Source: Mesostigma viride (lineage: Eukaryota > Streptophyta > Mesostigmatophyceae > Mesostigmatales > Mesostigmataceae). Taken from it: a stretch of DNA of 64,000 bases. A program made the translations under genes and the position numbers. The stretch covers positions 620,001 to 684,000 of the forward strand of contig RPFO01000165.1 of NCBI GenBank assembly GCA_009746045.1, in the 5' to 3' direction. Shown here piece by piece: positions 17,077 through 62,999 of the stretch; position 1 is the first letter of the stretch, and each line of letters opens with the position of its first letter. The notes under the pieces are model-generated. The model was given only the letters and a program-made list of their open reading frames with translations, was not told the origin of the DNA and did no database searches.

Positions 17077-17200
17077 GATTTGTACGGCGCCGACAATGAG
17101 GTCATGGTTTACCAGCCGTCCTGCGTGGCCAACAACAAACTCCCCTGCGTGGCCAGCGCCCCGTGGTGCGTCTATGGAGTCAGGCAAAAAACTCCAACAG

Positions 17201-17287
17201 TTTGTTGGACTACAACAAGACTGTTGTACGGCAACGCATTCCCAGCTCGCTCAGATTCCACAGATAAATTGAGCAAGAGCTCAGCAA
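17201..17287 (-). repeat. split direct repeat A1 (5' end of the DIRS/PAT-type element)
   Basis: Identical to 2151-2237 over 87 bp and then diverges on both sides (17200 G versus 2150 C; 17288 G versus 2238 A), which fixes the element boundary at 17287. Confidence 0.9.
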
Positions 17288-41499: not shown

Positions 41500-43100
41500 C
41501 TTGAGGTGTTGTCCCCTGTAAATAGTCAATCACCCCTAGTGGGACGAACAGTTGTACATAGTAATGGGGGTGTCCCTCTTGTGCAGCAGCAAGGGGTTGG
41601 GAATGATGAGGTGCTTCCACTCAATGACTGCAATAACGCTGCTGCAGCAGTGGAATTCCCTGTGCCTGTGGCAGGTGCAGGGTCTCCAGTTGTTGGGGTT
41701 GACTCTGGGAGTCAAGCCGCCAAACTGGAAGGACCTGCAGCTTCTGTGGGAACCGGGGCTGGCTCTGGGAGCCGAGCTACCTTGGAGGAGGTCCCTGGAG
41801 CAAGAGAACAGCAGGTGGGTCGTGCTATCCCAAGCACACAGTCTTTGTCACGTTCCTCTCTGTCCAGCCAGGCTGACAGGGGGTTGAGCTATGCTCAGGC
41901 TGGAAACACTTTACACCATATCTTTGGCCACTCTAAGCAGGCAGAGATGTTTGCTTGGAAGATTGGCAAGGAGCCTTTGCTAGAGGCCTGCAGTGCAGCT
42001 GCTCAGAATTGTGTCTGTCAGGAGAATGCTGTTCGCCTCCCACAGTCCCATGCCAGAGAACCTGCTAGACAGCGGGGGGATATCCAGGTGGACATCCAAC
42101 ATATCAGGGGCATGTATCTGTTGGTGGGGGTGGATAGGTTTAGCAGATATAGGTTGCTGACCATTCTTCCTGGAATGCAGGAGCATCAGCTGTTGATGGG
42201 TCTCCAGTCTTTGTTGCCAGGCTTTGGGGTGTACACCAAGGTGCAAGCTGACTTGCAGTTTGACTGCTTGATCAAGCTGGCTGACCAGCTTCCTTGTAAG
42301 TTGGTAGTGGTCCCTAGGGAATCCATGGGCAGCAGGGAGCTGTAGAGAGATCTATACGTGAAGTAAAAACAGTGGTGCTAGCAGCTAGGAGTGTGCCTGT
42401 TGTGGCATCAGCTCTAGAGCGAGCAGCTTGGTGTAAGGGGATTGAGGAGCAGCTTAACCACAGGGTAACCTATTACTATGATGGTGTGGCAGTCTCTCCC
42501 CTGGCATTGCAGTTTGGTATGCTATCACAGGACGTGGTGGCAGCCTGCCTGAAGAAGGCAGACAGGGTGTTTTCCAGGTTGAGGCGTATGGACAAGTGTT
42601 GGAAAATGCTGAGGCCCCAGGTGGGACTGAGGGTCAGGATGTGGAAGGAACCGTCATTACCAGGCAAGCGTGGCAAGTGGCAAGATGGGCAGGTGACCCA
42701 TGTTGAAGAGTCTAACCATTCTTGTCTGGTGGCTTTGGAGAGTAATCCCAAGCACGTGTACAGGCTATCCTGGGCTCACGTCAAGGAGAGAAGGCCAACT
42801 GCAATCTGGCCTGAAGACGGCCCTGATCCTCCCTTGGAGGGAGATGAGCAGGATGAGAGCCAGGCAGTAGATGCTAACCCACCATGCTTGGATGATGGTC
42901 TGTCCTGGATGGATGAGGGTGAGCAGGAGTCTGCTGAGACGTCTGTCACAAGGCCACAGGTGGCCAGGGCTGCACCACAGTCCAGGGGGCTGCTTATGGC
43001 GGACATCATTCGAGCTCTGCAGAACAGCAAGCGTGACCCCAAGGTATCTAAGCTCACAGGATGGGGGTCATGTGGGGCACCAGCACTAGAAGTGGATACC
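41500..43100 (+). pseudogene. pol of E3, N-terminal part: integrase and start of protease
   Basis: In frame with gag after the TGA; starts Leu-Glu-Val-Leu-Ser-Pro-Val-Asn-Ser-Gln-Ser-Pro-Leu, shared with E4. Integrase: His-His-Ile-Phe-Gly-His...Cys-Val-Cys (zinc-binding region), Gln-Val-Asp-Ile-Gln-His (first Asp), Gln-Ala-Asp-Leu-Gln-Phe-Asp (second Asp). A one-base deletion near 42320 precedes the Glu-Arg-Ser-Ile-Arg-Glu-Val-Lys segment. The C-terminal integrase region is at 42372-42840. The frame stops at Leu-Glu-Val-Asp-Thr, the expected protease active site, where E4 is inserted. The remainder is at 58756-59579. Confidence 0.75.
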
Positions 43101-43749
43101 AGTTAGCATTTTGTTTGGGCAACCAATATGCTAAGTGGATGCAGTTTGGAAAGACCTTTCCAACGCCGTGCTGACCGCCTGAAACAGACAAGGGACGAGA
43201 AAGATATCAAGTTCCGAAGTCCTAGCCATCCGTGGCCGACTAGGGTGCAGTCCGCTGGTATAGTGGACAGGACACGTGGCAGGCCGTGCCTGCACAGGCT
43301 TAGCCTGTCTATCACGTGACTGTGGTCCACGTAGACCAGGAGGAGCAGCAGCCTGTGACTAGTAGGGTACTGGAGCTGGCACAGGGCTGCAAGGATACTA
43401 GACCTTGCAGGCTTGTGACAGGTCCTGCACTTCCTAGGTTGCAGAGTCTAGGCAAATCCAGTACGTCCTGGCTCTGCACTGATGCCAGTGGACGTTGTGG
43501 ATTTGCTTGCACGCCTGCACGTGCCTCGTCATGCCGATGGGAACGAGGAACAACGCAAAGGATATAGCTTGGTCATGGGGGATGACCAGCTATCTCGGAA
43601 AGCACGAACCGTGGGTGCCACCTTGGTCGTGGAAGTGCCCACCGTGGTCGTGGCCTGGTGAACAGATTTAAGGTTGCTGCCTTGCAACATTGGCTAAGAC
43701 GCGCTGTGAAAGACCAAGAGCTCACATACGTTGGGAGCTCTTTCTAACT
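43101..43749 (+). repeat. 5' LTR of E4
   Basis: 649 bp, AGTTAGC...TCTAACT. Nearly identical to 51661-51960 over the overlap (a 3-base TTT insertion at about 43112 and a T/C change are the differences seen). The internal region begins CGTATTATTG, similar to the first bases after the LTRs of E1 and E3, which may contain the primer-binding site. Confidence 0.9.
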
Positions 43750-43774
43750 CGTATTATTGTCTCCTTACATCTTC

Positions 43775-45681
43775 ATGTCCAACGTGCCGAGGGAACAGGC
43801 CATTGAGCCTTCGCAAAGCCAAAGCTCGCAGCCGCAGCTTCGGGTGGGAGCCCCGGAGCGAACACGACCTCATTACAATTCGTTCAAGTGGCCCGCCGGA
43901 GCGGCTGTACAATTTTTCCCAGTGAGCGCGCTGCCAAGTGTACTTGTGGGCAAATTTTTAGGTGCCCCGTCACTTCGAGGTACTAAAAATTAGGCTACGG
44001 TACGAATTCAGCGAATTTCAGCGAATTTTCAGTCGAACCAAAGGAAGTGACGCCAACTACCAAAAAGTTTCCGTTACGAATTTTCAGCCCAACACTCGCG
44101 CAAAATGAAGTGACGGCAACTACCAAAAAGTTTCCGTTACGAATTTTCACTCCCACACTTCGCGCAAATTTTAGTAGGGCTGCACGCAAGCTACCTTTCA
44201 AAATTTTGCGCTAGTATGGAACGCATTTCATTCGTCTGGAGGAACGCTGCCCGCCAACTACCCCCGTTCAGAAAGTTCCGCCGAAATTTACCCGAGATTT
44301 GGAAATCTGAACGTCCGCGCAAATTTTAGTAGGGCTGCACGCAAGCTACCTTTCAAAATTTTGCGCAAGTATGGAACGCAATTCATTCGTCCGGAGGAAT
44401 GCTGCTCGTCAACTGCCCCCGTTCAGAAAGTTGCGCCGAACTTTACTTGAGATTTGGAAATCTGAACGTGCGGTTGGAGTTTCGCGGGGAAACCCAAGTT
44501 CCCAAGTAATTCACCAATGACGCGCTTCGAACACTTGTCCGCTAAAACCTAAGCAGCCGCTCCGGCTGGCCACTTAAACGAAACTTGATGTTTTCATCCC
44601 TACGCTCATCCGAGCACCGCATCAACCTTCGTCCAGGCGGCGTACCTGGCAAGGGGGCTGGCGAAGAAAGGTTGGGTGGCAGTTTGTGGAACTGCAGCAG
44701 GGCCGGCGGCGAGCGACCCCATTGTGATGCAGATTGAGGCTTCGACAGCTCCCGGCGAATTGTCGCGAGAGGCCGTCGAAATGTTTGTGTCGCTAAGGGA
44801 CGAGCTGTCCTCGACGATTTACGGTCTGGAGGTGGCTCACCAGGGCGGGCACGTGACCGTGTCGCAGCTGGATTTGGCGCGGGAGGCACTGGGCCAGATA
44901 GTGGCCATTGGACTGGGAGCAGCGCGACTGTTCAACCATCAGGTGGCAACGTCTGTGCTGGGCGCGGGAGTTGAAGTCCCGGACGTGATCAGGCAAGCGC
45001 AGGCGCGCGAAGTCGACAACCCCTGGTCGTCGGCAGAGGTGGTTTCACAAACGTGCGAACACCTCGTGAACATTCTTTTGCAGGAGTCACGGGGCAACGC
45101 AGACCGGTGGGTGATAACCACACGACCATTTGGGATTTGGTCAACACTCGACACACCGCGGGCGGCGGAACCAGACGCACACGATCCAGTGGTCGAGGTC
45201 ATCACGGGTCGGGAGGTAACGCCAGAAGACTTCCATTACCAATTCGTTGATCAGCCAGAGGGGATCATCGAACGTTCATCTCAGCAGATAGATCAAGGCG
45301 ACGGTACCACAGAAGGGTACGCTGCACGACGTCGTGCTGAGCTGCACGTCCCGCAAGAGCCCGAACACGACTACGGTGGTCGTGGGGCTGCAACGACAAG
45401 CGGGGTGGTGGAACGCGGTGGGTGAGAACCTTGAGTGGGATCGCTCGAGTGGGAGCGAGCCCCGGATCCCAGTGGAGAAATCTGCAGACGGGCGACCCGT
45501 TAGCAGAGTGTTTGGACCCTACGCCGACGGGGAGGACGCCGCTGGCAGCGACGAGGAGCGGCCAGAGACGCCCATCGCAGCCACTGCTCAAGAGCGAGAG
45601 CTGGAGGCAGCGAACCAAGCAGGTGCTGAGTCAGTAGCTGGGACGGTGCCCACGGCATCCCCCAGCGACGCCAGTGCTTGA
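43775..45681 (+). pseudogene. extra ORF1 of E4, broken by a MITE and frameshifts
   Basis: ATG 43775 (Met-Ser-Asn-Val), 25 bases after the LTR. It is interrupted by an inverted-repeat element (about 43879-44582) and resumes His-Pro-Tyr-Ala-His-Pro-Ser-Thr-Ala-Ser-Thr-Phe-Val-Gln-Ala-Ala. The core aligns with E1 and E3 throughout (Ile-Trp-Ser-Thr-Leu-Asp-Thr-Pro, Ser-Ser-Gln-Gln-Ile-Asp-Gln-Gly-Asp-Gly-Thr). Two frame changes near 45400-45460 disrupt the Gly-Gly-x-Arg-Trp-Val-Arg region. It ends TGA 45679-45681, 52 bases before gag. The protein is unknown; this copy cannot make it. Confidence 0.7.
43879..44582. mobile_element. 700-bp MITE in E4 ORF1 with internal duplications
   Basis: Inverted ends TTCGTTCAAGTGGCC...GGAGCGGCTG and the complement near 44552-44582. 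Two internal tandem duplications: about 65 bp containing CTACCAAAAAGTTTCCGTTA (44055 and 44120), and about 155 bp starting CGCGCAAATTTTAGTAGGGC (44161 and 44317). No clean target duplication was found; similarity of the flanks may extend the inverted repeats outward. Non-coding. Confidence 0.7.
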
Positions 45682-45733
45682 GTCAGTTCTTCCTTTTCCT
45701 TCGCCTTTATTGTTGTGTCCCCACTTGTATATA

Positions 45734-47081
45734 ATGCCTCGTGGCAAACCGGGCGACGGCGACAAGGGCGAGGGGGGCACCGGCTGGGAGAGCCAGGAGC
45801 CTGGGAAGGGCAAGGAGGCGCTGGTGGGAGAGGCGATCCCAGCCAGCGACGGCGATGGGGGAAAGCGACCAGGGAGCAAGAGGCGACACGAAGACTCGGT
45901 GGAGGAGGCGCGCAAGGCGCGGGCGCGGGGCATCTGATGCAATAACGGTGGCGAATGGGCAACCTGCCGTGGAGAAGCGTAAGAGGGACCCCTCCGCTGA
46001 CGGCAATGGTAAGAGGCCTCATGTGGATGTGCTCTCCCCTGTGCCTGCTGGACCAAGTGGTGCTGTTGTTGTGACACCCGCTGTGGTGGAGCCAGTGAAG
46101 GCGCTGCCAGGGTCGAGACCTCACATGAGTGCTGTCACTGTTATGAATGGACAAAAGCCTCTTAACCCACCACTAGCACAGGAAGCTTGGACAAGTGGCT
46201 AGAGGACATGGAGCTTGTTGTGTTCTCCGTGGACCCCACTGTCAACCTAGTGCAAGTGTTTCACTCGTCCACGTGCAACAGGGACTCGTCAGAGCGTGTC
46301 AGGGAGAAGGCTAGGACTGCTGTCAAGGATAAGCTAACCTGGGCACAGTTCCTGGATGGGTTGAGGGAGGAGTTCTCTGACAAGGTTCTCAACCTCACCA
46401 ACTACTACAAGCATCAGTATGACACCTTTGAGATAGTGGGCCCTGTGGCAGAGGAATGGGCTAGGCTCAACCGTATCAGGGACAAGGGGGCCAAGTATGG
46501 CTTCCTGGTCACAGATAGGGCCTTGGCAGACTATTTCCTGGACCGTATGGGTTTGAGTGTGGATGGGAGGAACGGTGCCCGCATGTTTCTTAACCAGACT
46601 GATGGCTCCTTGCGTGCTCTGGAGCTTGTAATCCTCAGCATAAGGAAGCCAGATCCTGCCTGCAAGGCTATCCAGTCCCATGGCAGCAATGCCACCTCCG
46701 CTGTGCAGGGCCAAGGTGATGTCCCCGGGTACCCAGCCCGTGATGGGGCAAGGCCCAACAAGCGTAAGCGCTTCAGGCGCCAGAGGCAGGGGCTCAGGGT
46801 GGCAAGGGTGCAGGTCCCAAGGAGGGGTTGGGGGCCAGCAAGCTGGTGGTCAGCAGGGTAAGGGTGGCCAAGGGCAAGGCAAGGGCCAAGCTCAAGGCAA
46901 CCAGGGCAAGCAGGGTGGGCAGCCTCAGGGAGGCCAGGGGAAGCCTGGCAAGGGTGGGGCTGGGTCTGGGAAGAAGGGTGGAGCATGCTTTGTGTGTGGC
47001 AAGGAAGGTCACTGGCGTCGTGAGTGTCCTGACAGGAAGGCCAAGCCTGCTGGGGCAGGAGGCCAGTCTGGGCAGCAGTGA
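45734..47081 (+). CDS. copia gag of E4, CCHC zinc knuckle, frameshifted; ends TGA in frame with pol
   Basis: Starts Met-Pro-Arg-Gly-Lys after TATATA. Frame changes near 45930, 46190 and 46785 split it into overlapping readings. Core: Leu-Glu-Asp-Met-Glu-Leu-Val-Val-Phe, Val-Asp-Pro-Thr-Val-Asn-Leu-Val-Gln-Val-Phe, Leu-Thr-Trp-Ala-Gln-Phe-Leu-Asp-Gly-Leu, Asp-Arg-Met-Gly-Leu-Ser-Val-Asp-Gly-Arg. A Gly/Gln/Lys-rich linker leads to Cys-Phe-Val-Cys-Gly-Lys-Glu-Gly-His-Trp-Arg-Arg-Glu-Cys, a standard C-x2-C-x4-H-x4-C knuckle (46987-47028). The stop TGA (47079-47081) is followed by CTAG and the same frame continues as pol. The pol ORF is intact, so gag errors are probably recent. Confidence 0.75.
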
Positions 47082-47084
47082 CTA
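47079..47084 (+). promoter_or_regulatory. candidate stop-codon readthrough site (TGA CTA) between gag and pol
   Basis: CAG-CAG-TGA-CTA-GCT, with pol coding in the same frame immediately after. UGA followed by CUA is a known leaky context used by several RNA viruses and cellular genes. E3 has CCA-TGA-CTT at the same place. The residues directly after the stop (Ser-Pro-Val-Asn-Ser-Gln-Ser-Pro-Leu) are conserved in both, which argues that they are translated. Confidence 0.6.
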
Positions 47085-50000
47085 GCTACATCATCCCCTG
47101 TAAATAGTCAATCACCCCTTGGGGAAGGTGTGCTGGATGTACATAAGGACGGGGGTGTGCCCCTTGTGCAGCACCAAGGGTGTAAAGATGTTGTTCTTCC
47201 ACTGGATTGCAATAACAATGCTGCAGCTGAATTCCCTATGCCTCATGCAGGTGGTGGGTCTCCAGCAGGTGCTGGCCTGGAGGGCCAAGGGACCTTGCTG
47301 GAAGGGCCTGGAGCGGTCCAGGGTGCAGGGCCTGACTTGGGGCGTCAGGACGGCCTGCAGGGAAGCCCTGGAACCTCAGGAGTGGATCATGTGTCCCCAC
47401 ACACGGTTCAGACGTCTCGCCAGGTCAGTACTGAGAGAGTGCTGAGCTATGCTGAGGCTGGCCATAGGTTGCATCACATGTTTGGGCATTCTGGGCAGGC
47501 AGCAATGTTTGCTTGGAAGCTAGGTAGGGAGCCTTTGTGGGAGGCTTGCCAGGCTGCTGCTGAGAACTGTGGTTGCCAGGAGAATGCTGTTCACCCACCT
47601 CAGTCCCATGCTAGGGAGCCTGCTAGGGAGCGTGGCGACATCCAGATGGATATCCAGCATATCAGGGGCTTGTATATATTGGTGGGGGTGGACAGGTTCA
47701 GCAGATACAGGCTGATAGACGTTCTGCCTGGTATGCAGGAGCACCACTTGTTGTTGGGTATGAAGGCCCTGATCCCAGGCTTTGGGGTGTGCAAGAGTGT
47801 GCAGGCAGACTTGCAGTTTGACTGTTTGCTCAAGCATCAGGACCAGCTGCCTTGTAAGCTGGTAGTAGTCCCCAGGGAGAGTCATGGGCAGCAAGGGGCT
47901 GTAGAGAGATCCATACGTGAAGTGAAGACAGTGGTGCTAGCAGCAGAGTCAGTGCCACTTGTGGCATCTGCCTTAGAGAGGGCAGCCTGGTGTAAGGGGA
48001 TAGAAGAGCAGCTGAACCACAGGGTTAACTATTACTTTGATGGTGTGGCTGTCTCTCCCCTGGCCCTGCAGTATAGCTTGTTGCCTGAGAACGTGGTGCA
48101 GGCCAGTCTTAGGAAGGCAGATAGGTTATTTGCCCAGCTGAGACGTAAGGACAAGAACTGGAATGTGCTGAGGCCTCAGGTGGGGCTGAAGGTCAGGATG
48201 TGGAAGGAACCATCTATTCCAGGCAAGCGGGGGAAGTGGCAGGATGGGGTTGTCACTCGTGTGGAGGAAGCTAACAGATCTTGCCTGGTGGCTTTGGAAA
48301 AGGATCCAAGGCACGTGTACAGGTTGTCCTGGGCTCATGTCAAGGAAAGAAGGCCACATGCAATCTGGCCTGCAGACGGGCCAGGCCCTCCCAGCTGGGT
48401 TGAGGAGCCAGGCCAGAGCCAGGCAGCAGCAGCTAACAATCCTCTGGTGGTGGATGATGGTCTGTCCCTGCTGGAAGATGACGAGCAGGAGGAGGCTGCT
48501 GAAGCAACTGTCACAAGGCCAGAGGGGACGGGGCAGCCACCTAAGGCCCGGGGGCCTCTCATGGCGGACGTCATCCGAGCACTCATGCGCAGCAAACATG
48601 ATCCCAAGGTATCCAAGCTCACGGGGTGGGGGTCGTGCTGGGCAGCTACAATGGAGGTAGATACCAACTCACAGGTGTCTGTCATCAGGGAAGAGGATGC
48701 TGTAGGCTTACAGATGTCCCATCCCAGTTGCCTTGCTGTGTCTGATTTCTCAGGAAAGGTGTCCATGAAGATCCTTGGGGAAGTGAGTGTGCCTATCTTA
48801 GGGGTGCCCACCACGTTCTGTGTGGTAGAGGGCTATCAGGGGCCTGCCATTCTGGGTCAGAACTTCTTGTGCATGCCAGGGGTTACTTTGACCTCTGATG
48901 AGTTGGCACTAGAAGGCAGGGGCAGCCTCCCCCTTGAAAGATATCACTATTCCCAGGGTCTTGCAGTGGCGGTGAAGGCTGTTAGGAGTCAGCCAGCTGA
49001 GGGTCCTCAAGGTCAGGAGCCCATAGCTGAGGACCTGTTGATAATCCCAACCACCTTTGATCCAAGGCAGTTAGGGGTAAACAGGTACCAGATAGCTGCT
49101 CACAGTCCTATTCCCTGGCGCCAGCTAGTCGAGATGATGCAAAGCCCCAAGATGGCTAAGGCATGGACTCTTGGCTTTGTTGCTTCTGGGCATGAGTGGA
49201 TAGTTTCCAACTGTGCAGAACCTGTGGATGAGCTGCCAGAAGTTCACCAGCTGCTCAGATTGATGTTTGTCCTCAAGCTCAAGGAGGTAGATGGTGTCCA
49301 GGTGCCACATGTCAGACCAGTTGTAACCGAGTATCATGGCACTGGCCAGTTGTTAGATGAGGAGCTCTATACTCCAGGGATGCTGCATGACACGTGGAGG
49401 ATTCTGCTGTGTATATTTCTGTCTTTTCTGGTTAAGGGTGTGCCCTATAGCTCTGTGCTGATTGATTTCAAGAGGGCTTTTCTCAAGGGTGACCAAGATC
49501 AGGCTAGGCAGACTTGGAGAGATATCCCTCCTTTCTTTGTGACTGTACCTGCTGTATGGAGAGCAGAGATAAAGGCCAGGTACCTGAGAATTCTGAAAGG
49601 GTTGGAAGGTCTCAGGTCCAGTCCCATTATCTGGAGAAAGAGCCTAGAGAAATTCTTGAAGAATACTTGTGGGTTTTCTGTGTCTCCAGTGGATCCCTGT
49701 TTGTTCCAAGGGTCCCACAATGGCCTTCCTGTCTTTGCCTCACTGCATGGTGATGACCTGCATCTCATAGGTCCACCAGACTGGGTTGAGGCTGTCTTGG
49801 CTAAGATCCAGAAGCGGTTTGAGCTGGGTAAGATACAGCACATGGTGGAGAATGAGCCTATGGTCTTCTGTGGCATGCAGGCTACGTTGTTCCAAGCCAA
49901 GGGCTCGTGGTTCATCAGGATGGAGGGTGGTAAGGACTACCCACAGCAGATTGTAGATGCATTGCAGGAGCCCATCACGCAGGCTAGGTGTGCTACCATC

Positions 50001-50654
50001 AGGGGCATGCTGGCATGGCTTGCAAGTATATGTGCCCCTGACTTGCTGGTTTTGAGTCGACTTACTGATTCCCAGCTGGTTGAGGTGGGTGCTGAGAGTG
50101 TGGTGCAGGCTGTCATGATGTCTCCCCCTCTCATACTGGGTCCTGTGGATTTGTACAAGCCCCTTGACATGGTTCTCTATGTGGACAGTTCTATGGATAA
50201 TAGGAAGGTCACAGAGGTCAGGGGCAGGGCAGCAGCATTAGTTACCCTGGAGCAAGATCACACCTCACTTGTTACCTGGTACAGTCGGTTGCAGAACAGG
50301 GTTACACCCAGCAGTGATATTGCTGAGTGCAGGGCAATCTGTGAAGGGCTGCATACTGCTCTTTACTTGAGGGAGCTCTTCTACCAGCTATGTCAAGTGG
50401 CTTCCTGTAGGTTGCAGCTGCACACACTGGTGAGGACTGATAGCATGGGCATGGTGCAATTTGTGCACAGGCAGCTGGCCAGGAGCAGGGACCTTGACTA
50501 CTTGTTGCTCAAGGAGATGTCCTACCTAGCTCACATTGAACATGTGCCTGGTGTGGACAACCCTGCAGATGCCCTCACCAAGCTGGAGGAGAAGGCGGAG
50601 AGGCAGTACCCCCTGCTCCGTGGGCTCATGGACCCCTTACACGGGCGGCCATAG
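47082..50654 (+). CDS. copia pol of E4: integrase - protease - RT - RNase H (intact)
   Basis: Open from the gag TGA; first Met at 47130 gives 1,174 residues (numbering from there). Integrase: His-His-Met-Phe-Gly-His at about 115 with Cys-Gly-Cys, then Asp174, Asp227 and Glu259 (Gly-Ala-Val-Glu-Arg-Ser-Ile-Arg-Glu-Val-Lys) as the DDE triad; C-terminal basic part to about 430. Protease follows integrase: Glu-Val-Asp511-Thr-Asn-Ser-Gln-Val-Ser-Val-Ile, later Pro-Ala-Ile-Leu-Gly-Gln-Asn-Phe-Leu (about 573). RT: Ile-Asp779-Phe-Lys-Arg-Ala-Phe-Leu, then His-Gly-Asp875-Asp in the YVDD place. RNase H: Val-Asp1019-Ser-Ser, Ala-Glu-Cys-Arg (about 1066), Thr-Asp1104-Ser-Met and Val-Asp-Asn-Pro-Ala-Asp. 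No D-T/S-G motif occurs before the integrase. Usual copia order has protease first, so the order here is unusual. Probably expressed by TGA readthrough. Confidence 0.85.
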   Translation, partial: LATSSPVNSQSPLGEGVLDVHKDGGVPLVQHQGCKDVVLPLDCNNNAAAEFPMPHAGGGSPAGAGLEGQGTLLEGPGAVQGAGPDLGRQDGLQGSPGTSGVDHVSPHTVQTSRQVSTERVLSYAEAGHRLHHMFGHSGQAAMFAWKLGREPLWEACQAAAENCGCQENAVHPPQSHAREPARERGDIQMDIQHIRGLYILVGVDRFSRYRLIDVLPGMQEHHLLLGMKALIPGFGVCKSVQADLQFDCLLKHQDQLPCKLVVVPRESHGQQGAVERSIREVKTVVLAAESVPLVASALERAAWCKGIEEQLNHRVNYYFDGVAVSPLALQYSLLPENVVQASLRKADRLFAQLRRKDKNWNVLRPQVGLKVRMWKEPSIPGKRGKWQDGVVTRVEEANRSCLVALEKDPRHVYRLSWAHVKERRPHAIWPADGPGPPSWVEEPGQSQAAAANNPLVVDDGLSLLEDDEQEEAAEATVTRPEGTGQPPKARGPLMADVIRALMRSKHDPKVSKLTGWGSCWAATMEVDTNSQVSVIREEDAVGLQMSHPSCLAVSDFSGKVSMKILGEVSVPILGVPTTFCVVEGYQGPAILGQNFLCMPGVTLTSDELALEGRGSLPLERYHYSQGLAVAVKAVRSQPAEGPQGQEPIAEDLLIIPTTFDPRQLGVNRYQIAAHSPIPWRQLVEMMQSPKMAKAWTLGFVASGHEWIVSNCAEPVDELPEVHQLLRLMFVLKLKEVDGVQVPHVRPVVTEYHGTGQLLDEELYTPGMLHDTWRILLCIFLSFLVKGVPYSSVLIDFKRAFLKGDQDQARQTWRDIPPFFVTVPAVWRAEIKARYLRILKGLEGLRSSPIIWRKSLEKFLKNTCGFSVSPVDPCLFQGSHNGLPVFASLHGDDLHLIGPPDWVEAVLAKIQKRFELGKIQHMVENEPMVFCGMQATLFQAKGSWFIRMEGGKDYPQQIVDALQEPITQARCATIRGMLAWLASICAPDLLVLSRLTDSQLVEVGAESVVQAVMMSPPLILGPVDLYKPLDMVLYVDSSMDNRKVTEVRGRAAALVTLEQDHTSLVTWYSRLQNRVTPSSDIAECRAICEGLHTALYLRELFYQLCQVASCRLQLHTLVRTDSMGMVQFVHRQLARSRDLDYLLLKEMSYLAHIEHVPGVDNPADALTKLEEKAERQYPLLRGLMDPLHGRP

Positions 50655-51660
50655 AGACCAGGCCTTGCTTCAGCTTGGGTGTCCCCAGTGGGCTGCTTGA
50701 CCAAAGTACCAAGTGGTGACTGGTGCTTACTGGTTGACAGCCGGTCCTTCAGGGTTAGGTACACCCTCCTGGACAGGAGTTGGTGTGGAATGTCACTCCT
50801 ACCAGCTGAGAATCATGCCTGGCCCTCCCCATGGGGTTCAGAAGAGTCGCCAGGACTTAAGTCGACGCCTTTGGCCTCAAACAGTTAGGCCATGCAAGGG
50901 CAACCCGAATGCTGGTTCTTACAGGTTGCTGTATATATGTTTTCTAGTGCTTGTTTCCAACCTGTTGCTAATAAAGAACCTGGTTGTGTGACCATGTGGA
51001 ACATGGTTGCCAGGGAGCCACATTCTGGGTTATATAATGCTTGAATAAAACATAATCATGTCATCTCTCATGTTGTTTCATGGTTGTAATGTTTCTCTTG
51101 TGTAAGTTCCAGGTCACCTATAAACCTGGAGGTTGGGGTGGGGTTCAATTCCCCAGCAGAGCCACAGCCTGGCATGAGTGATTCCTGGGCTTAACACCCA
51201 GTGAAGACATGGGCTCCCCAATAAGGCAGTATTTGTATAGGTGCTACCTGAGTCTCTTTGAGCATAAAAGGGAAAGGCTGGCCAAGGCGGGCGCCATAAG
51301 AACGGGCGCCTGTGATAACTGTGAAAGATCAGGAACTCACAATAATACGTTCTTGGCATCCTTTAATCCCAGCCATTGGACTAGGTAATGTGCCTTGACT
51401 TTAATCTAACACCAAGTTCCCAAGGAAAGGTTGGGAGCTGACCAAGGGGTCAGGGGATAACCTGGGGTGACCTCTGATTCACTGGCCAGTACACCTAGCC
51501 TGGTCCAAGGGCGTATATGTTGTTACCCAAAAGGAGGCAGGACCCTGGGCCCTATCAGGTCTGATCAACCCCAAGGGACCAAGCGGTCTGTGGCTGAGTG
51601 GGCACAAGCAAGGTAAGGCTTGTTTCAAGCTGGTCCAGCTCCAAAAGAAGAAAGGGTTGG
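50655..51660 (+). other. 3' untranslated region of E4
   Basis: About 1 kb without a gene. AATAAAG at about 50970 is a candidate polyadenylation signal. At 51320-51340 GTGAAAGATCAGGAACTCAC closely resembles the GTGAAAGACCAGGAGCTCAC found near the 3' end of this family's LTRs, with a TATA-like CATAAAAGGG about 60 bases before it. This may be a remnant LTR of a related family. The last 20 bases (CCAAAAGAAGAAAGGGTTGG) are the polypurine tract for plus-strand priming. Confidence 0.55.
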
Positions 51661-51960
51661 AGTTAGCATTTTGGGCAACCAATATGCTAAGTGGATGCAG
51701 TTTGGAAAGACCTTTCCAACGCCGTGCTGACCGCCTGAAACAGACAAGGGACGAGAAAGATATCAAGTCCCGAAGTCCTAGCCATCCGTGGCCGACTAGG
51801 GTGCAGTCCGCTGGTATAGTGGACAGGACACGTGGCAGGCCGTGCCTGCACAGGCTTAGCCTGTCTATCACGTGACTGTGGTCCACGTAGACCAGGAGGA
51901 GCAGCAGCCTGTGACTAGTAGGGTACTGGAGCTGGCACAGGGCTGCAAGGATACTAGACC
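51661..51960 (+). repeat. 3' LTR of E4, truncated
   Basis: 300 bp nearly identical to 43101-43403, preceded by the purine tract. Sequence changes to unrelated AATACGCG-rich DNA at 51961. Confidence 0.9.
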
Positions 51961-52555
51961 GGGTTGGCAAATACGTGTACGGGGTATAATACGCGGGCCT
52001 AAAATACGCGTATTATACGTGGGGGGTGTAAAATACGTGGCGGTAAAATACGCGACAGTTTTTGTGGTCCAATTGTCAGTCACCCAATTAGCACGCTCCT
52101 TGATGATGGTCATGCAGTTATTGCAACTGAAATTTGGTGTATATGCTTAATTATTTACTAACATCTTCCATTTATGCCCTGGAATCCTATCTGATTATGA
52201 TTTGTTAAATGCAGGGGGGAGCAGGCTGCAACGGGAATAGTAAGGAATCAATTAATTAATTAATTGTAAGGAAAGCCATCCACTATATAATGCATGAGAG
52301 GACATAAGACACAACTTCCGAGGAGGGGTGACGTGCCCTCCTTTGTACTGGATCGTACCGGCCACCATCTGCTTGAAAGCTCTCGGCCGCATTGAAGGCA
52401 ATGCCGTTCTCGATAAAAAATTCGGCAGCCAGCAGCTGGACACCTTTCTCGTCGACGGGAACCAGCCATTTGGTGATGCTCAGCTGGCCTTTGCTGGGAA
52501 CCGACGACAAGTCAGCCGGCGCAGCCCCTCCCATCTCCGCCATTGCCCTGTTCAA
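51961..52555 (-). pseudogene. hAT transposase N-terminal fragment and flank
   Basis: The minus-strand frame 52555-52283 reads Ser-Ile-Thr-Lys-Trp-Leu, Leu-Leu-Ala-Ala-Glu-Phe-Phe-Ile-Glu-Asn-Gly-Ile-Ala-Phe-Asn-Ala-Ala-Glu-Ser. This matches the pattern of hAT transposases just after the BED region (...FFxENGIPFNxxxS...). The rest of the transposase is absent. AGGAGGGGTGACGTG at 52321 is 13 of 15 identical to the left terminus of the hAT-like MITE at 38293. 51961-52050 has repeated AAAATACGCG/TACGTGG motifs. It sits at a deletion junction between E4's 3' LTR and element B. Confidence 0.5.
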
Positions 52556-52559
52556 ATTG

Positions 52560-53829
52560 TGCTGCTTCTTGGCGGTCGGAGCTCACGGCCATCCTGAAAA
52601 AGGTCGTCGGCCACGGCAACAACGGGGGCCAGCGAGGGCGCAAGCGCGGGCATGGTGGCGACGCCAAGCAGGGTGATCATCCCCCGGCCAAGCGGCAGCA
52701 GGGGGCGTCTGCTGACCGCAAGCAACGCTGTGAGCGCTGCTTCGGACGTCGCCATGTCCGGGATGAATGCCGAGTTCGCCCGGACCTGGAGCTCGAGAAC
52801 AACCTTTGCCGCAAGTGCCACGACGTTCTGCGTGGTCACAGCGTGGAGGCGTGCAAGGCCAAGCGCATCGTCGTCCACGGCACACGCGAGGAGTGGGCAG
52901 AGCGACGGGCAGCACGAAAGTCAGGTGAGAGCACGCTCGATACCCCTTCTTTTGCTCAATGCGTCACGCTGAACCGGGCCGTCGTAGAGCCTGACGTCGT
53001 TCCTAAAAGCAACGTGACTGCATCCTCTGTCTCATTCCGTGATGTGCTCACGCAATCCGTTGATGCTGCTCTGGCTCTGTCGCGCCAGGATCACGTGCTT
53101 CCTGAGCACGGGTCTACAATGCGTGACCTAAGCAATGTGGTGTCTTCTAGGTCGGGTGTGTACAAGGCCGAGCGACCAAGCACTACTGCAGCACCCCAGC
53201 TAGATTCTGGGGCGGTTGGGCCTATGAGGAATGGTGTGACAGTGCAAGAGAATGCTGGGCGGGCAGATGTTCTCGGTACACACTACCCTAGTGTGGATCT
53301 TCACATTGGCAAGGTGCTCACACGGGCGGCCTTTCGTGCAGCCTCTGAAGCTGCCCAGTTAGCCAATGTCACTACCCCAGTAGTCACCCCACCTGTTGAG
53401 AATCCTGACAATGCCACTGCACCTCAGGCTGTCACCCTGAAACTGTTAGCATACCAGATGCACCGTGCATACGGGCATGAGGCCCAAGCCAAGGTAGAGG
53501 GGGCACACATGTTGGGGGCACCTTTATACAACGAGCTGAAGAATGTGCGTGCTCAGTGTCCTGCCTGCATCAAGATCAGGAAGAAGTCGCGTAGGCGGCA
53601 TGCCAAGACTCCACCCTTGGAGCGAGGGTACCTTGTGGGGGATGTCATGCACATGGAAGGGGGGGACACCTATTTCATAGTCAAGGATAGGTTCAGCAAG
53701 GTCACCTACATTGAGCCGCTGCCCCACATGTTTGAGGCTGACCTGCACAGGGCTGTCGCGTCTGCGTACCACAATCTCCGGCGCCACCATGGCGGCTGGC
53801 CATGCTCAGCTTTGGTAAAACCCAAATGA
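52560..53829 (+). pseudogene. element B gag tail and integrase N-terminal half
   Basis: Basic Gly/Lys/Arg-rich start. Zinc knuckle Cys-Glu-Arg-Cys-x4-His-x4-Cys (about 52732-52773), then a second Cys-x2-Cys-x6-His-x4-Cys cluster. A 200-residue linker leads to the integrase zinc region His-Arg-Ala-Tyr-Gly-His...Cys-Pro-Ala-Cys (53461-53570). Then Gly-Asp-Val-Met-His-Met-Glu-Gly, with the first catalytic Asp at 53641, and Lys-Asp-Arg-Phe-Ser-Lys. Gag and integrase share one frame without an intervening stop, unlike E3/E4. The frame is lost after Gly-Gly-Trp-Pro-Cys at about 53800 where foreign sequence enters. Confidence 0.65.
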
Positions 53830-54955
53830 GCTGAGCTGACGTGCCTGCCTTAACTGCATGCCCGGTGGGGTGGGCGAGGACCTGTCCCATGATGAACACA
53901 CACTTTGCACAGTCTGATGATGAAGCCGCGCATGCGGAATTTATTGAGAAAGTTAATACAATTACAACACGTTGATAGTCTCAATATCGATGCACTCCAT
54001 GCTCACGAGCCCGCAGTTAGGCAGCGCTCCATGACATGCTACTGGCCTTGCTCCCAAGGAAAGGGAGAAACACGAAGGCCACTAACGAGAGACTCGAAGA
54101 GACTACACGCTACGTGAGAGTCCTCTTCGACTATGAACCAAACCATTCGTCATGCCACACGCATGACACACGCCACACTTGTCAGTCCAGCCAGGAATGC
54201 CCAAACTATCTTGCTGCCTGAACCATGCAAATAGAAACTGCATTCCAGTTGCCGTCCTGGCTTTCTACCACACATGCCAACAAAAGCAGGAAGGCATCCC
54301 GACAAATCTAAATTGCTACCCTGTTGCCGATCTCATCTCCTAGAGGCTCCGGCATTTCTGTCCCTGGGAATGTCCGGCATTGAGTCACGACCACCAAGGT
54401 CGAAGCATAATATCCTTCAAACAATCTGCACGCTCACACCTTGCGTGTGAGTGGCCCAGCAAACATTGCTTCTAATCTTTCCTTTCTAGAAGAAATCCCT
54501 TTGTAGGGCTGCCAGCGATTTCGCATTCATTCCAGCGATCTGGCTCCGCACCGCAAATTGTCCTTTTCCATTTTCTGTCCAGTCCTCATAACGTTGACCC
54601 GCTATTCTACACCACAAAGACACCTGGCCTAGCTGTCAATAGCCTCGGCGCTGTTGAAGTCCAGCAGTCCAGCTCCAGCTCCAGCTCCAGCTGTCCAATA
54701 ACTCGCGTATGATCCTCTCGACGCTGCGCACTTGTGCTGCCGTCCGCTCAAGTACGTCTGTGCTGCGCGCCCAGCCGTGCCTGGCCCGGCGCGCGCGCAC
54801 GTGCACTTTCGTCCGCTCTTATGCTGTAAGTGCTAGTGTCCCCCCCCCGGTCACTAGCCTTTGTCGAAAATGCGCAGAAAACAAAATCCTCGCGCACGTC
54901 ACCGGTCTTGTGCATAGTGGGCGCCCGGATGACACAGCTCGCGTCCGTGACAGGG
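53830..54955. other. 1.1-kb insertion of unknown type in element B integrase
   Basis: Separates the two halves of the integrase. I could not find matching inverted ends or a clear target duplication; CCATGCTCAG and CTCATGCTAG near the two junctions are only loosely similar. An in-frame segment at its right end (from 54709, Arg/Ser/Thr-rich) runs into integrase sequence. Contains a CTCCAG repeat near 54668-54690. Confidence 0.4.
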
Positions 54956-57900
54956 CTATCAAGATCAGCCTGGCTTTCTTTCATCCCGTAGTGGAGCTCA
55001 TGCTAGACCAGCAGTTCCGCTGTGTGCAAGGTTTGCCGGGGATGGAGGCCGTGGTCATCGTGGGGCGTGAGGATCACGGCAATATGGGCATGATAGATCG
55101 CACTGTAAGCTATGTCAAGACTGTGGCAGCCAAGCGACAGGATAACCCACATGGCAAATCCTACGCGGTCAAGACGGCGTGGTGCAATGAGCTCATGCAT
55201 GTGTGCAACCATAGGCACGTGCTCGATGTCAAGGGCTTTGGGCTAGTCACGCCTCGGGGGCTGTCAGCGGGCACCTACTCACCCGAGGTAGTAGAGGCAT
55301 ACCAACAGCATCTACAGGATACCGCCGCCAAGCTGCGGCTCAAGGATGCCACGCTGCCTGATTTGTCTAGCGCTTTTGAGGTCGGGCAGTTGGTCATGTT
55401 CCACAAGGAGAGCTCGCCCAGCGGCAAACGGGGCACCATGCAGGGGCCTGGGGCCATCACAAAGTTAGACTGGCCGCTGCGGGTCATAGACATAGAGTGG
55501 AATGATCGGGTGTATAGGGTACCATGGGCATCGGTGGCAGGCTATAAGCAAGGGGATGGCATGGAGAGTGAGCTGGCAGCCAACAGGGCACTGGGGTGGG
55601 TAGTGAAGGATAATGCGCCTGTCGTAGCATCTGAGGTGGTACCCCACGGGTCGCTCCCAGGGGCAGACACAGCTACACCCCCCCCTCCCCTGGGCCCCAA
55701 TATGACCCCGTGGATGGGTGGGATGAGGATGGGGTGGGTTTGACGGGACCTAGTGCACGTAGTGACTCACCTCCTGTGCTAGCCACGGATAATGTGGGAG
55801 GCCCGCCTAGCGTGGCCTCGCCGGAGGGTCAGGGTCCTGCCCATGCGCCTCGCCCACCTAGGGACCTGGCTTCAACGGTCACGGCCTTGTGGCGTGCTCA
55901 GGCGCTTAAAGCGAAAGCTGCATCAGGGGTGGCTCAGGTCAAAACTCTCTCACAGGGGGTCAGGCCGGTTAAGTCAGCCTTGTTTCCTACGTGTAGACCG
56001 TGGCAGCTGGTGGCTGTGGACACGCAAGCATCCGTGTCTATTATCTCTCGTCGGGCGGCCACCCTGTATCCAGTGCTAGAGTCGCCGTACAAATCGGTGA
56101 CCGACTTTGCAGGCACTTCGGCATATCAAGTTACCGGGATGGTGGTGCTGCCGGTGTTGGGCATTGACACGCCGTTTCACGTCGTGGATGGCTACGAGGA
56201 TGTGGCCTTGCTGGGCGAACCTTTCGTATCATACCCGGGGTTCTCAGTGTCCGCTGACTTGCTGTCGGTCGCGGGGGTGGGCAGCATCCCGCTTCGCGAG
56301 TACCACGCTCCATTGGGGGTGGTGGTCGGGCAGCCCGGCGTCGTGCGGCGCTTACCGATGGCGGCGTTTTCCACACCGCCGCTCGTCCAGTCCATCATTC
56401 AGCCTCAGGATTGGCACCCGCGCAGCTTCGGCCTCCACTCACACTCACTGGCGGCGGATAGCCCTGTGACGTGGGAGCAACTTGTCCTGGACTGTCAAGA
56501 TCCTCTCAAGTTTGCTTTGTGGCGCGACGCGTTCATTCGAGCCAAGGAGCAGTGGCGAGAGCGCGAGGTCTACCGAGGATTGGAGAGTGTGCCAGCCGGG
56601 GCCACGCGGTTGCGGTTGAAGTTCGTGCTCACCTACAAGCCGGACGAGACCAACTCTTCGGTGGTGTTCCGGGTTAGGCCCGTGGTCACGGAGACGAAGG
56701 GGTCCTCCCCGCTGGATGCCAAGGATCTTTATACCCCTGGGCTCAACCATGTTTCGCATCGGCTACTGACGGTCATCTACTTGGGCAAGCGGAACGCGGG
56801 CAAGGACTACGGGATGTGGTGCGGTGACTTTCAGCGGGCATTCCTCCACAGCGACGCTGGGGTCGCGCAGCAAACATGGCAAGGCACCCGCTACGTGGTG
56901 AAGGTCCCGGTGGTCTGGCAGGATGGCACCATTGGCAGCGAGTATATCGAGCTGTTGACAGGGGTGGAGGGGCTGCAGAGCTCTCCCATCATCTTCCGCA
57001 TATCCGCGGAGGAGGTCTTGCAGAACTTAGGGGCCACGTACCATCGCGCTGATCCTAACTTCTTTGTGGTCCCCACCGGCGTCCCTGGCGAGCCAGCCCT
57101 CTTCGTGTGGCATGGCGATGACTTCAAGCTGGTGGCACCTCGCACCTTTGCTACCCAGTTTCTTGCTGCAGTGGCGGCTAAGTTTCCCCTGGGCAGGGCG
57201 GTGGATCATGAGGAGGGTAAACCCGTGGTGTTTTGCGGCGTGCAGTCTACGTTGCAGCGGGATTCGCGTTCTGGCGAATGGGTCATGCACATGCAGGATA
57301 GCCGCAACTATGTGGTTGACCTGCTGGCCGACCTCCCGTCCCCGCTGTTGGCAACCCATGGGCCCTCGGTTAAGGACAAGCTCGGGTGGTTGGCGGACAC
57401 GGTGTGGCACCTGATTTGGCAGTGCTCGCTCGCCTGCCCGATGATGTGCTGGAAGGACTAGGGTCCATTCATGTTCGGCGGCAGCTGGCCATGACGCCCG
57501 GCATTGTGCTTCGTGGGCTCGATTGCTCACAGCCGGTGCACCTCGAGATAGTGACGGATGCTAATCTAGAGACGCGCACAGTCAGCCAAGTGCGGGCCCG
57601 CATGGGGGCACTGTTCTTTATCAGCAATGAGGGACAGCCTGGCATGTTGTTAGATTGGTACTCGCGCTTGCACAGCCGCATTGCCACTAGCCCCAACACG
57701 GCTGAATGCCGGGGCATTGTTTCAGCTATCTCACATGGCATGTGGCTGCGGTACTTGCTGGGTTGGGTATTTGGCTCGTGTGGGTTCACTCTTCACTGGA
57801 CTAGCACGGTGCACACTGACTCACAAAGTTGTTTGGCCTTCCTTGACAATCCCTATGCGCGGTCACAGGACGTTGATTACCTCGTACTCGCTGAGGCGGC

Positions 57901-58030
57901 CTCCTGCGTCACGCGTCTCCAGCACATCGCGGATGAACTCAATCCCGCGGATGCACTCACCAAGGAGGCGCGGGAGGCTGCCCCGCAGTACGCAGTGTTG
58001 CGCAAGCGCATGACGATGCAACACCCGTGA
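54956..58030 (+). pseudogene. element B pol: integrase C-half, protease, RT, RNase H; two frameshifts
   Basis: Integrase resumes Leu-Asp-Gln-Gln-Phe-Arg-Cys (second Asp). Met-Ile-Asp-Arg-Thr-Val stands where E4 has Ala-Val-Glu-Arg-Ser-Ile, so the catalytic Glu reads Asp. One frameshift near 55690 (C/G runs). Protease after integrase: Ala-Val-Asp-Thr-Gln-Ala-Ser-Val-Ser-Ile-Ile (Asp at 56019), Asp-Phe-Ala-Gly-Thr, and Val-Ala-Leu-Leu-Gly-Glu-Pro-Phe. RT: Trp-Cys-Gly-Asp-Phe-Gln-Arg-Ala-Phe-Leu-His and Trp-His-Gly-Asp-Asp-Phe (57108-57125). A second shift near 57405 leads to RNase H: Val-Thr-Asp-Ala-Asn, Ala-Glu-Cys-Arg-Gly, His-Thr-Asp-Ser-Gln and Asn-Pro-Ala-Asp-Ala-Leu-Thr-Lys. Order and HGDD match E4. 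Confidence 0.75.
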
Positions 58031-58408: not shown

Positions 58409-58755
58409 AGTTGAGTAACTCTAGAGCCCTAGGATCTGGCTCTAAGTTCCCCATGTTCGTCCGCACGCCTTCCGCTAGCGTCCGCTAAGCCGCCGGCTAT
58501 AATCCGGCGGTCCGATGCGGTCGACCGGTCTAAGGGCGGCGCCTAGGGCCGGCGCCACCTAGGCCCCAGTCCGGGGCCTTATCCGGGTCGGTACGGACAG
58601 CTAGCTTGTCCCACGGTTATGGCTAACCGGATAGGCTTTGCTGGCTAAGACATAAACCAGTGGTTGGCCAGCTCCGACAGCAGTTCTCTGTGTTCACCTT
58701 ATCCCAAGCTCATCGTGACCGACCGCCATAGCTCAGCCGGTCGGGGGCTTTAACT
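58409..58755 (+). repeat. 3' LTR of element B
   Basis: 347 bp starting AGTTGAGTAACT and ending GGGCTTTAACT, directly after a purine tract and directly before resumed E3 coding. No second copy is present because the 5' end is lost, so this call rests on the AGTT...AACT termini shared with E3/E4 and on position. Confidence 0.55.
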
Positions 58756-59579
58756 GAAGGGTATCAGGGGCCTGCCATTCTAGGTCAGAACTTCTGGTGC
58801 TTACCAGGGGTGAGGATATCCTCTGAGGAGCTTGCATTAGAGGGGCAGGGCCGCCTTCCCTTGCAGAGATATCGCTACTCCCAGGGTCTTAGTGTGGCTG
58901 TAAGGGCTGTGAGGGGTCTAGAGGCAGAGGGTCCTGATACAAAGGAGCCCATTGCTGGGGACCTGCTGATCCTCCCTACTACGTTTGACTTACGTGAGTT
59001 GGGTGTGCAGAGGTACCAGATCCCAGGAACGAGTCCTGTACCTTGGCGCAAGCTAGTGGAGATGATGCAAAGCCCCAAGATGGCTAAGGCATGGACTCTT
59101 GGCTTTGTTGCCTCTGGGCATGAGTGGATAGTTGCCAACTGTGCAGAGCCTGTAGATGTCCTCCCTGAGGATCACCAGCTGCTCAGGTTGATGTTTGTCC
59201 TCAAGCTCAAGGAGGTGGATGGCGTGCAGGTGCCACATGTAAGACCAGTTGTGACTGAGTACCATGGCACTGGACAGTTAGCAGATGAGGAGCTTTACAC
59301 ACCAGGGATGCTGCATGATACATGGAGGATTTTGTTGTGCATTTACTTGTCTTTTCTGCAGAAGGGGATACCCTATAGCTCTGTGTTGGTAGACTTCAAG
59401 AGGGCTTTTCTTAAGGGTGATCAGCAGGAAGCACAGGATACTTGGCGCACAATACCCCCTTTCTTTGTTAAGGTGCCTGCAGTGTGGAGGGCAGAGCTGA
59501 AGACGAGGTATTTGAGGATTCTCAAAGGCGTGGAAGGCCTTAGGTCGAGTCCCATCATCTGGAGGAAGAGCTTGAAGAA
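58756..59579 (+). pseudogene. pol of E3, continuation: protease end and RT N-terminal half
   Basis: Resumes Glu-Gly-Tyr-Gln-Gly-Pro-Ala-Ile-Leu-Gly-Gln-Asn-Phe, then Pro-Lys-Met-Ala-Lys-Ala-Trp-Thr-Leu-Gly-Phe, Arg-Pro-Val-Val-Thr-Glu-Tyr-His-Gly-Thr, and Val-Asp-Phe-Lys-Arg-Ala-Phe-Leu-Lys-Gly-Asp (first RT Asp). Highly similar to E4 over the same region. Ends at Lys-Ser-Leu-Lys-Asn where the LTR of element C begins, so HGDD and RNase H are absent. Confidence 0.8.
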
Positions 59580-60398
59580 TGTTTGGATTGGGAGAGGAGA
59601 CTAATGGGTTTTACACAATGCCTTGTGCTTGGCCTTGCTACCCACACACCTTGCAGGTGCTGAAAGAAAGAGAGGTTGAAGACAATTTACGTGGAAGAAT
59701 AAATGGCTTTATTAGAATATAATAGTTGGAGAAGAGCTTGAATGGAGGTTGAATGGAGGTCGAATGGAGGTACCTGCCCTTAGGGGGCAGTTTCCTTTTA
59801 TACCTTTTAGGCTAGGAAGGATGACATCAGCAATGACATCATCACAGAAGCTTGTAGAAACATCCTAGCATATTCCTAGCATATTCCCAGCATATTCTCA
59901 GTATATTCCAGGAATATTCCTGGCATATTCTTAGAACATTCCTAGAAGATTCTAGACATGATCCAATGAGCTGGCATAATAGCTAGATGCCAAGTGTCTA
60001 CATAATAATGTGCCACATAACATAATTAATAAAGTGACACATCTCTTCTCCTTGGAGTGACAAGTGTCATGCAATGAGTCTACCCACTTGTCATCATGTA
60101 AGTCATAACATGTGTCATCATGAGCTTCCAACACTTGTCAGCTCATGGACCAAACACTTGTCAAATAGGCCATAGCACCACTTGTCAATCCAATACGTGA
60201 TGCTACTAGGCTGACTCAGGGTACAAGTCATCCATGTCCAAGTATAGGACTATGGCACATGAATATTGATCAGCTCATTAAGCCCAATTCATCTAGCTTA
60301 TCAAAGCTATCAAATTCCCAGTCCATATGGAATAAATCCAACAAGAAATAAATCAGGCTGGGATATATTGTGGCCAGGTGGATATAATATCCCTAACA
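59580..60398 (-). repeat. 3' LTR of copia element C (minus strand)
   Basis: On the minus strand it reads TGTTAGGGATATTATATCC ... CCAATCCAAACA, canonical TG...CA ends, preceded by the purine tract CTAAGGGGGG (60408-60399). It contains TATAAAAGG (59802-59794) and, about 85 bases further, AATAAAG (59713-59707), the expected promoter and polyadenylation order. It interrupts E3 RT after AAGAA (59575-59579). Confidence 0.8.
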
Positions 60399-62301: not shown

Positions 62302-62993
62302 TTAGGGCAACCTTGAGGAGTGGGGTCTGTGCATCCTGGGCGACAATTTCCAAGGGTCGTTGCAGCTAGCGCAGTTGCAAATGCCATAGCCTGGCCGAAC
62401 ACCGTAAACTGACCGACGTGATACCTTGGCAGCATTTTGCACCTTAGTTGACCGTTGGTGCTTGACAGCACTGTGGCTGACAGGTCGCTGTCCACGTCGT
62501 TGTCGGCTCGCTCGAGGCCTCGCGCCAGCACCGGACTTGGCAGTCCCGGACTTGGAAAAATTTTGCAGCTTGGTCGATTTCGCCCTCGCGTCACGAATTT
62601 GTTCCCCCTCAGTTAGGCTGGCAGCGTTCATGCGCCGCGCCTTTGGTCTGGTCGCCGGACTTGGGTTACTAGCACCAGTATCACCTGGTATGCTGGCGGC
62701 GACAACGCGCTCCGCCTGCACTGGGCCCGGGCTGTTCTGGACCGCAGTTTCTGGAAGTACTTCAGCGTCTGACACGGACTTCTCCATTGCGCTGGAAACT
62801 TCTCGAATTGGCGTGAACTTCCACTGGGCCGGCGCAGAGTATAAAAAGCCACGCCGTGTGCGAGTAATGCCCAGTAGGCCGCCCCCGATCCCGCATACAC
62901 GGGCAAGCATGGCCAGTATGACCGTTAGGCCCACGGCCAGCCACTCCGCCGCGTGTCCCGAGGCACGTGAGATGCTGCGCTCGCTGCTCGCCA
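62302..62993 (-). CDS. unknown ORF with one predicted membrane segment, downstream of element C gag-protease
   Basis: The frame follows the copia fragment and is open to TAG/stop near 62302. From Met at about 62993 it encodes about 230 residues. It has a hydrophobic stretch (Trp-Leu-Ala-Val-Gly-Leu-Thr-Val-Ile-Leu-Ala-Met-Leu-Ala, then a Gly-rich part) near residues 17-42 and a long Ser/Ala/Arg/Lys-rich tail. It ends Cys-Asn-Cys-Ala-Ser-Cys. No family recognised. It could be a decayed integrase zinc region read in the wrong frame, an accessory ORF, or a host exon. Confidence 0.3.
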
Positions 62994-62999
62994 TTTTCT

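Follow-up and report, generated by a model that had tools for sequence, protein, structure and literature searches.

Protease before integrase is the order that serves as a defining trait of Ty1/copia elements, and Llorens 2009, in the part of that paper available, places int downstream of pr in all known copia elements. How firmly this order holds is the question raised by 64,000 nucleotides of the Mesostigma viride genome (GenBank assembly GCA_009746045.1, contig RPFO01000165.1, positions 620,001 to 684,000 of the forward strand), referred to here as the window. Nested long terminal repeat (LTR) retrotransposons fill the + strand of the window between 31.8 and 59.6 kb, and a preliminary description had read in two of them, E4 and B, a protease that follows the integrase and precedes the reverse transcriptase (RT). 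In our view E4 and B, together with a third family termed P7, are likely to form a single lineage of LTR retrotransposons that has a copia-like RT and a captured protease of the ILG type, in the order integrase-protease-RT-RNase H.

E4 spans 43101–51960 (+ strand, as are all E and B features below) and includes a 5' LTR, an open reading frame termed ORF0, gag with a CCHC knuckle, and pol. Pol is a single open frame (47082–50654) that encodes the integrase (47424–48350; zinc-binding region, Asp174, Asp227, Glu259 and an SH3-like C-terminus; rve, E 0.032), a retropepsin-like domain (48651–48993; Asp511-Thr-Asn, and ILGQN at residue 574), RT (49011–50129; HGDD at 49746; RVT_2, E 1.8e-5), and RNase H with the end of pol (50130–50654; RVT_3, E 0.031). 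The residues lie where the preliminary description had placed them, and the order it gave for E4 is read in one intact frame. The 5' LTR (AGTTAG...CTAACT; 43101–43750) matches that of copy L002 at 95.7% identity (650 aligned columns), and the truncated 3' LTR (51661–51960; full LTR ~645 bp) is 98.4% identical to 43101–43404. The same LTR ends, together with 5-bp duplications, were found in copies L002, L004, L008 and L011. ORF0, located 5' of gag, is frame-broken in the window (open frames within 44589–45678) and forms one frame of 404 amino acids (aa) in L001, L004 and L007; a Pfam scan of it gave weak matches only (0.05 and worse). ORF0 of the E family (~370–404 aa) is alignable between E3, a further element of the window (38987–40093), and L007 (1832–3043), with 0.37 differences per non-synonymous site (pN) and 0.74 per synonymous site (pS). 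The gag region (45735–47078, start approximate) is likewise frame-broken, with gag and the CCHC knuckle in different frames that are joined in one 485-aa frame in L007.

Copies were sought in the 440-Mb assembly that contains the window; the match counts are lower bounds, the best candidates having been scored, and near-identical contigs are possibly assembly duplicates. There are at least 41 matches to E4 pol, 17 of which, the window copy included, span residues 1–1174 without a stop. Seventeen E4 loci of 10 kb were fetched for comparison, and all are collinear with E4 pol. In nucleotides they are 97.6–99.9% identical to pol of the window copy; L011, L012 and L014, which carry stops or frame changes, are 93–95% identical by protein. 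LTR pairs 98–100% alike were recovered in six of the 17 loci (leaving out L007, whose pair is 79% alike), and 5-bp duplications are visible in four.

B is only 34% identical to E4 over the protease-RT region (E 2.5e-100) and has the same order, as the preliminary description had maintained. In the window it comprises the gag zinc fingers and the first part of the integrase (52572–53757; 98.7% identical to copy L041), the remainder of the integrase (54950–55740; second Asp, then GMIDR), a retropepsin-like domain delimited by alignment with E4 and P7 (56010–56352; VDTQ with Asp at 56019, after the integrase and before RT; LLGEPF), RT (56373–57458; HGDD at 57111; 36% aa identity to E4 RT), RNase H in another frame (57407–58030; 37% aa identity to E4) and a 3' LTR (58409–58755; 96.5% identical to that of L041). 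This copy is damaged: its 5' end is missing, the integrase is interrupted by a stretch (53758–54949) that appears as a gap between the aligned pieces and is absent from L041, and the third acidic residue is Asp. Among at least 75 genome matches to B, 65 are 100% identical over residues 1–565 and two have a frame of at least 1224 residues, one of which was read. An unbroken frame through integrase, protease and RT was seen in one other B copy (L027/L041), which in L041 has a 5-bp target duplication.

A protein search of EukProt with B returned two Mesvir1 proteins, 99% and 46% identical to it. The former belongs to the B family and the latter represents a third family, P7, with a 100% match in the genome of the window. 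A spliced-leader pattern expected of a dinoflagellate host had no match, and the Mesvir1 names agree with Mesostigma as the most likely host. P7 has at least 71 genome matches, 13 of them in a 1249-aa frame, and the copy read (L020) encodes integrase, an Asp-Thr-Met protease, RT and RNase H; LTRs of P7 were looked for and not found. Over protease, RT and RNase H the three families are 34–47% identical to one another. The window is rich in nested insertions, and a foreign protease could have been brought into E4 or B by a chimeric or nested copy or by misassembly; however, integrase, protease and RT share a single frame in three families that differ widely, and at numerous loci located on separate contigs, which makes such an artefact extremely improbable and bears out the opinion of the preliminary description that the order does not result from rearrangement. 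Thus, the order integrase-protease-RT-RNase H is a trait of the lineage shared by E4, B and P7 and not of a rearranged copy.

Two further pieces of the E family flank these elements. Pol of E3 (41500–43103) runs from the integrase to the protease Asp-Thr and is cut off there, as had been described, by the 5' LTR of E4, whose first position is 43101. E5 (58756–59580; protease end and RT, 82% aa identity to E4 residues 564–841) adjoins the 3' LTR of B at 58755. Since E3 is cut at the start of E4 and E5 resumes further along the protease after the 3' LTR of B, the two probably derive from a single element that E4 and B divided.

The type of the protease-like domain was considered in relation to the proteases of known elements. 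Copia proteases carry a loop LLS with very few exceptions, and most others carry ILG, according to the accessible part of Llorens 2009. In the three families the loop is ILG, LLG or LIG, and the catalytic motif is Asp-Thr-Asn, Asp-Thr-Gln or Asp-Thr-Met; an ILG-type loop, as in gypsy elements and retroviruses, in place of LLS, together with these motifs, speaks for a retropepsin captured from elsewhere rather than for a relocated copia protease. Retropepsins of the PF13975 type are abundant in the genome (at least 150 matches scored), hence a donor would have been at hand. If instead it was the copia protease of an ancestor that changed from the front to the rear side of the integrase and then diverged, one recombination step would suffice; Asp-Thr has been retained, and changes of Gly are tolerated in copia proteases, as in the DSAAS of element C of the window. 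But the loop is not LLS, the single Pfam match of the E4 domain is a weak one to PF13975 and not to Pol_BBD, and profile comparison with standard copia proteases was negative for both that were tried: hhalign runs of the three-family protease with that of element C and with that of a metagenomic element, P0008, gave probabilities of 0.3 and 0.2 of 100, a comparison of low power because the templates are single sequences. Relocation is therefore regarded as unlikely, though it is the foremost of the alternatives.

Several observations weigh against placing E4, B and P7 in one copia-like lineage with a functional protease at this position. Profile support is slight: the RVT_2 match of E4 is weak and under the curated cut-off, and Pfam scans of the B and P7 frames were empty, with no RVT_2 match in B or P7 and none of any kind for the retropepsin-like domain of B by itself or the protease piece of P7. 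RVT_2 was matched in two of three members of set A2, and rve in two of five family pieces (best E 0.0077). The profile searches proposed in the preliminary description thus gave matches in E4, to rve and, weakly, to RVT_2 and PF13975, and none in the B frames. For the E4 integrase, Foldseek returned 64 matches at E ≤ 1e-3; all 50 among the matches listed are retroviral integrase chains, and the best (2.7e-7) extends over about 300 columns. On the other side, the template modelling (TM) scores are under 0.26 with a root-mean-square deviation near 20 Å, the predicted local distance difference test score (pLDDT) of the model is 39.3, and the VIA fold comparison recovered only the C-terminal Tudor, SH3-like and other small barrels. 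The identity of the integrase is supported by fold comparison of what is a low-confidence model.

Integrases of P7 and B have Asp and not Glu as the third acidic residue (GLIDR and GMIDR; L020, L027/L041 and window 54950–55740). These Asp-bearing integrases occur in families with many near-identical copies.

The protease-like domain is subject to similar objections. The catalytic motif of retropepsins is Asp-Thr/Ser-Gly, and replacement of its Gly by Asn, Gln or Met may mean weak or no catalysis. The E4 model has a pLDDT of 47.5 and no Foldseek match at E ≤ 1e-3; the VIA comparison includes a foamy-virus protease-RT among its rows. A retropepsin-like fold for the domain after the E4 integrase, still putative, has support from fold comparison, again with a model of low confidence; with Asp-Thr and the ILG-type loop it agrees with the protease reading put forward previously.

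Substitutions were compared at several distances. E4 and B proteases share 35% aa identity, with codon positions 1, 2 and 3 identical at 46.5, 64 and 33% and a synonymous divergence (dS) of 2.0, which is near saturation. Ratios of non-synonymous to synonymous divergence (dN/dS) between E4 and E3 are 0.32 and 0.25 for two parts of the integrase and 0.19 for gag; between E4 and E5 the ratio is 0.15 (0.35 when only the protease end is taken). Since the integrase frames of L011, L012 and L014 are shifted, values for these copies were not used. When changes relative to E4 were pooled for five of the 17 copies (L009, L010, L013, L015 and L017; small counts with shared ancestry), the synonymous:non-synonymous counts came to 3:7 for the protease, 86:10 for the integrase, 27:2 for RT and 61:23 for RNase H. 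Present purifying selection on the E4 protease is, from these counts, not evident. Both these counts and the non-canonical motifs would agree with a retropepsin fold that has a role other than proteolysis, such as RT dimerisation or a linker, cleavage being left to a host protease or absent altogether. Nevertheless, Asp-Thr and the ILG-type loop have been kept in three families as divergent as these, and no other convincing protease was found in the elements scanned; a non-protease role is judged improbable, slightly more so than relocation.

The scan for a second protease covered D[ST][GANQMS] motifs in ORF0, gag and the pre-integrase frames. The motif is absent between the CCHC knuckle and the integrase in E4 copy L007 and P7 copy L040, and elsewhere the scan gave DSSER (gag of both L007 and E3), DTS (gag of P7) and, in E3, also DTG within gag and DSG before the integrase. 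A single finding might speak against replacement of the protease, and it comes from B, in which LDTGA (L042, 1113–3161) or LDSGA (window, 52477–53826) occurs between the zinc fingers and the integrase. The scan thus shows no sign in L007 and L040 of a protease between zinc knuckle and integrase, which the preliminary description had named as evidence against its reading, and B has at that place a motif that resembles a retropepsin in five residues. B might accordingly retain a pre-integrase protease or its remnant, the later domain having been added and the older one lost in E4 and P7. No ILG- or LLS-like loop follows 40–115 residues downstream, however, the P7 sequence aligned with it does not have the motif, and a Pfam scan of the region at E ≤ 10 was empty (as is also the case for the P7 protease piece). 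It is probably a chance motif and not a protease, and such an addition is very improbable.

Expression of pol also differs between the families. In all 17 fetched E4 copies UGA-CUA (47079–47081 in the window) lies between the CCHC knuckle and pol; it shares the pol frame in 16 of them (L014 being the exception), as does the CCHC knuckle in 15 (all but L014 and L016), and a gag frame of 483–510 residues is in the pol frame in L007, L010 and L013. UGA-CUA is a leaky stop context. E3 has UGA-CUU at the aligned place (41497–41499), and P7 copy L040 has an in-frame UGA-CGU. Retention of the in-frame UGA-CUA suggests readthrough as the simplest route to Gag-Pol in E4. Against a common strategy, B gag is in frame with the integrase and no UGA is present, and in six of seven distinct B copies the integrase and protease-RT are in different frames. 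The change of frame lies at a C-run between integrase and protease (~55675–55690; L025, L026, L028, L029 and L042) and may be a programmed frameshift or inherited damage.

With these objections taken into account, descent of the three families from one ancestor with a captured protease is still preferred. In this ancestor the copia protease ahead of the integrase would have been lost, and a retropepsin of the ILG type acquired on the other side of the integrase, before RT. In E4 and P7, translation of Gag would halt at the in-frame UGA, and some ribosomes would read through it to give Gag-Pol. The embedded protease would then dimerise in the particle and release Gag, integrase and RT-RNase H, after which reverse transcription would proceed in the manner of copia and integration would duplicate 5 bp of the target.

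RTs of the three families are 36–46% identical among themselves and 20–24% identical to two standard copia RTs, L035 from the genome of the window and P0008. In an unrooted tree of these five sequences E4, B and P7 stand apart from the two standard elements (support 100 for RT-RNase H and 91 for integrase). L035, the in-genome control, has integrase, SH3 and RT with no Pfam protease between them, its fetched part starting short of the upstream region. Apart from P0008 (7e-8), no relative outside Mesostigma reached E ≤ 1e-3. The order in P0008 is standard by eye, with DSGA and LLLS followed by rve and RVT_2; a search of IMG/VR and GTDB contigs confirmed no relatives, and a PDB sequence search gave nothing relevant. 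The designation of E4 as copia-like would apply to the RT only, with its weak RVT_2 match, the protease looking like one of the ILG type.

Element C (62765–63997, - strand) has a CCHC knuckle and a copia-type protease (Pol_BBD, 1e-14) and agrees to that extent with the standard copia plan ascribed to it in the preliminary description; its integrase and RT were not found. A solo LTR of the E family lies within gag of another copy (34665–35312), with GCAGC on either side. On the - strand, remnants of a CACTA-type transposase are present at 5239–7259 (Transposase_21, 6.4e-28; DUF4218, 4.3e-4), and a long open frame at 12916–17250 has a tyrosine-recombinase-like end (Phage_integrase, E 0.011), RT-like motifs by eye that are DIRS-like, and GDVHPNPGP, which we take to be a 2A-like motif. 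Repeats of ~21 bases form a dense array at 1–890. Pfam scans of + strand frames at 17.4–27, 27–36.6 and 52–61.6 kb gave a single, uninformative match (DUF3915), and Rfam (gathering threshold) and tRNA scans found none.

Here the protease-before-integrase rule is broken by three families represented by numerous near-identical copies. This suggests an order of enzymes in copia-type elements that is less fixed than is generally held. Elements of unexpected order were removed as likely mispredictions by Neumann 2019, as the available part of that paper indicates. Pfam sees little or nothing in E4, B and P7, and similar lineages may therefore be missed elsewhere. The families provide a test case for whether processing constrains polyprotein order and whether LTR elements exchange retropepsins in modular fashion. 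More tentatively, they could represent a deep, undescribed LTR-retrotransposon clade outside known copia, marked by integrase first, a captured DTN/DTQ/DTM retropepsin, HGDD in RT, DDD integrases in two of three families, AGTT...AACT termini and UGA readthrough.

No lineage with integrase-protease-RT order was found by name and topic in the open-access literature, subscription papers and Repbase being outside its scope; together with the portion of Llorens 2009 available, this agrees with the earlier statement that no copia lineage of this order has been described. The literature drawn on here includes PMC6317226, PMC2806351, PMC2774666, PMC3248453 and PMC12440569. Like Ty1/copia elements, the families have a CCHC gag, integrase before RT-RNase H, LTRs and 5-bp duplications, and in E4 an RT with a weak RVT_2 match. 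They differ in the position and loop of the protease, in HGDD in RT, in the LTR ends AGTT...AACT of E4 and B, and in the third integrase residue of B and P7. HGDD and an Asp-Thr-X protease are common to the three families. The CoDi elements of diatoms are also algal copia elements, but have the order protease, integrase, RT, RNase H (Maumus 2009, as far as available). An ILG-type retropepsin directly before RT recalls Ty3/gypsy; in contrast to Ty3/gypsy and foamy viruses, the integrase of E4, B and P7 is at the front and not at the end, and their RT is closer to that of copia. The Gmr1 clade of Ty3/gypsy has an RT of gypsy type. It resembles the three families in its unusual domain order with integrase ahead of RT, but int is there downstream of pr (Llorens 2009, accessible part). 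Hence neither protease-RT-RNase H-integrase, as in Ty3/gypsy, nor protease-integrase-RT, as in Gmr1, corresponds to the arrangement of E4, B and P7, in which integrase is first and protease second.

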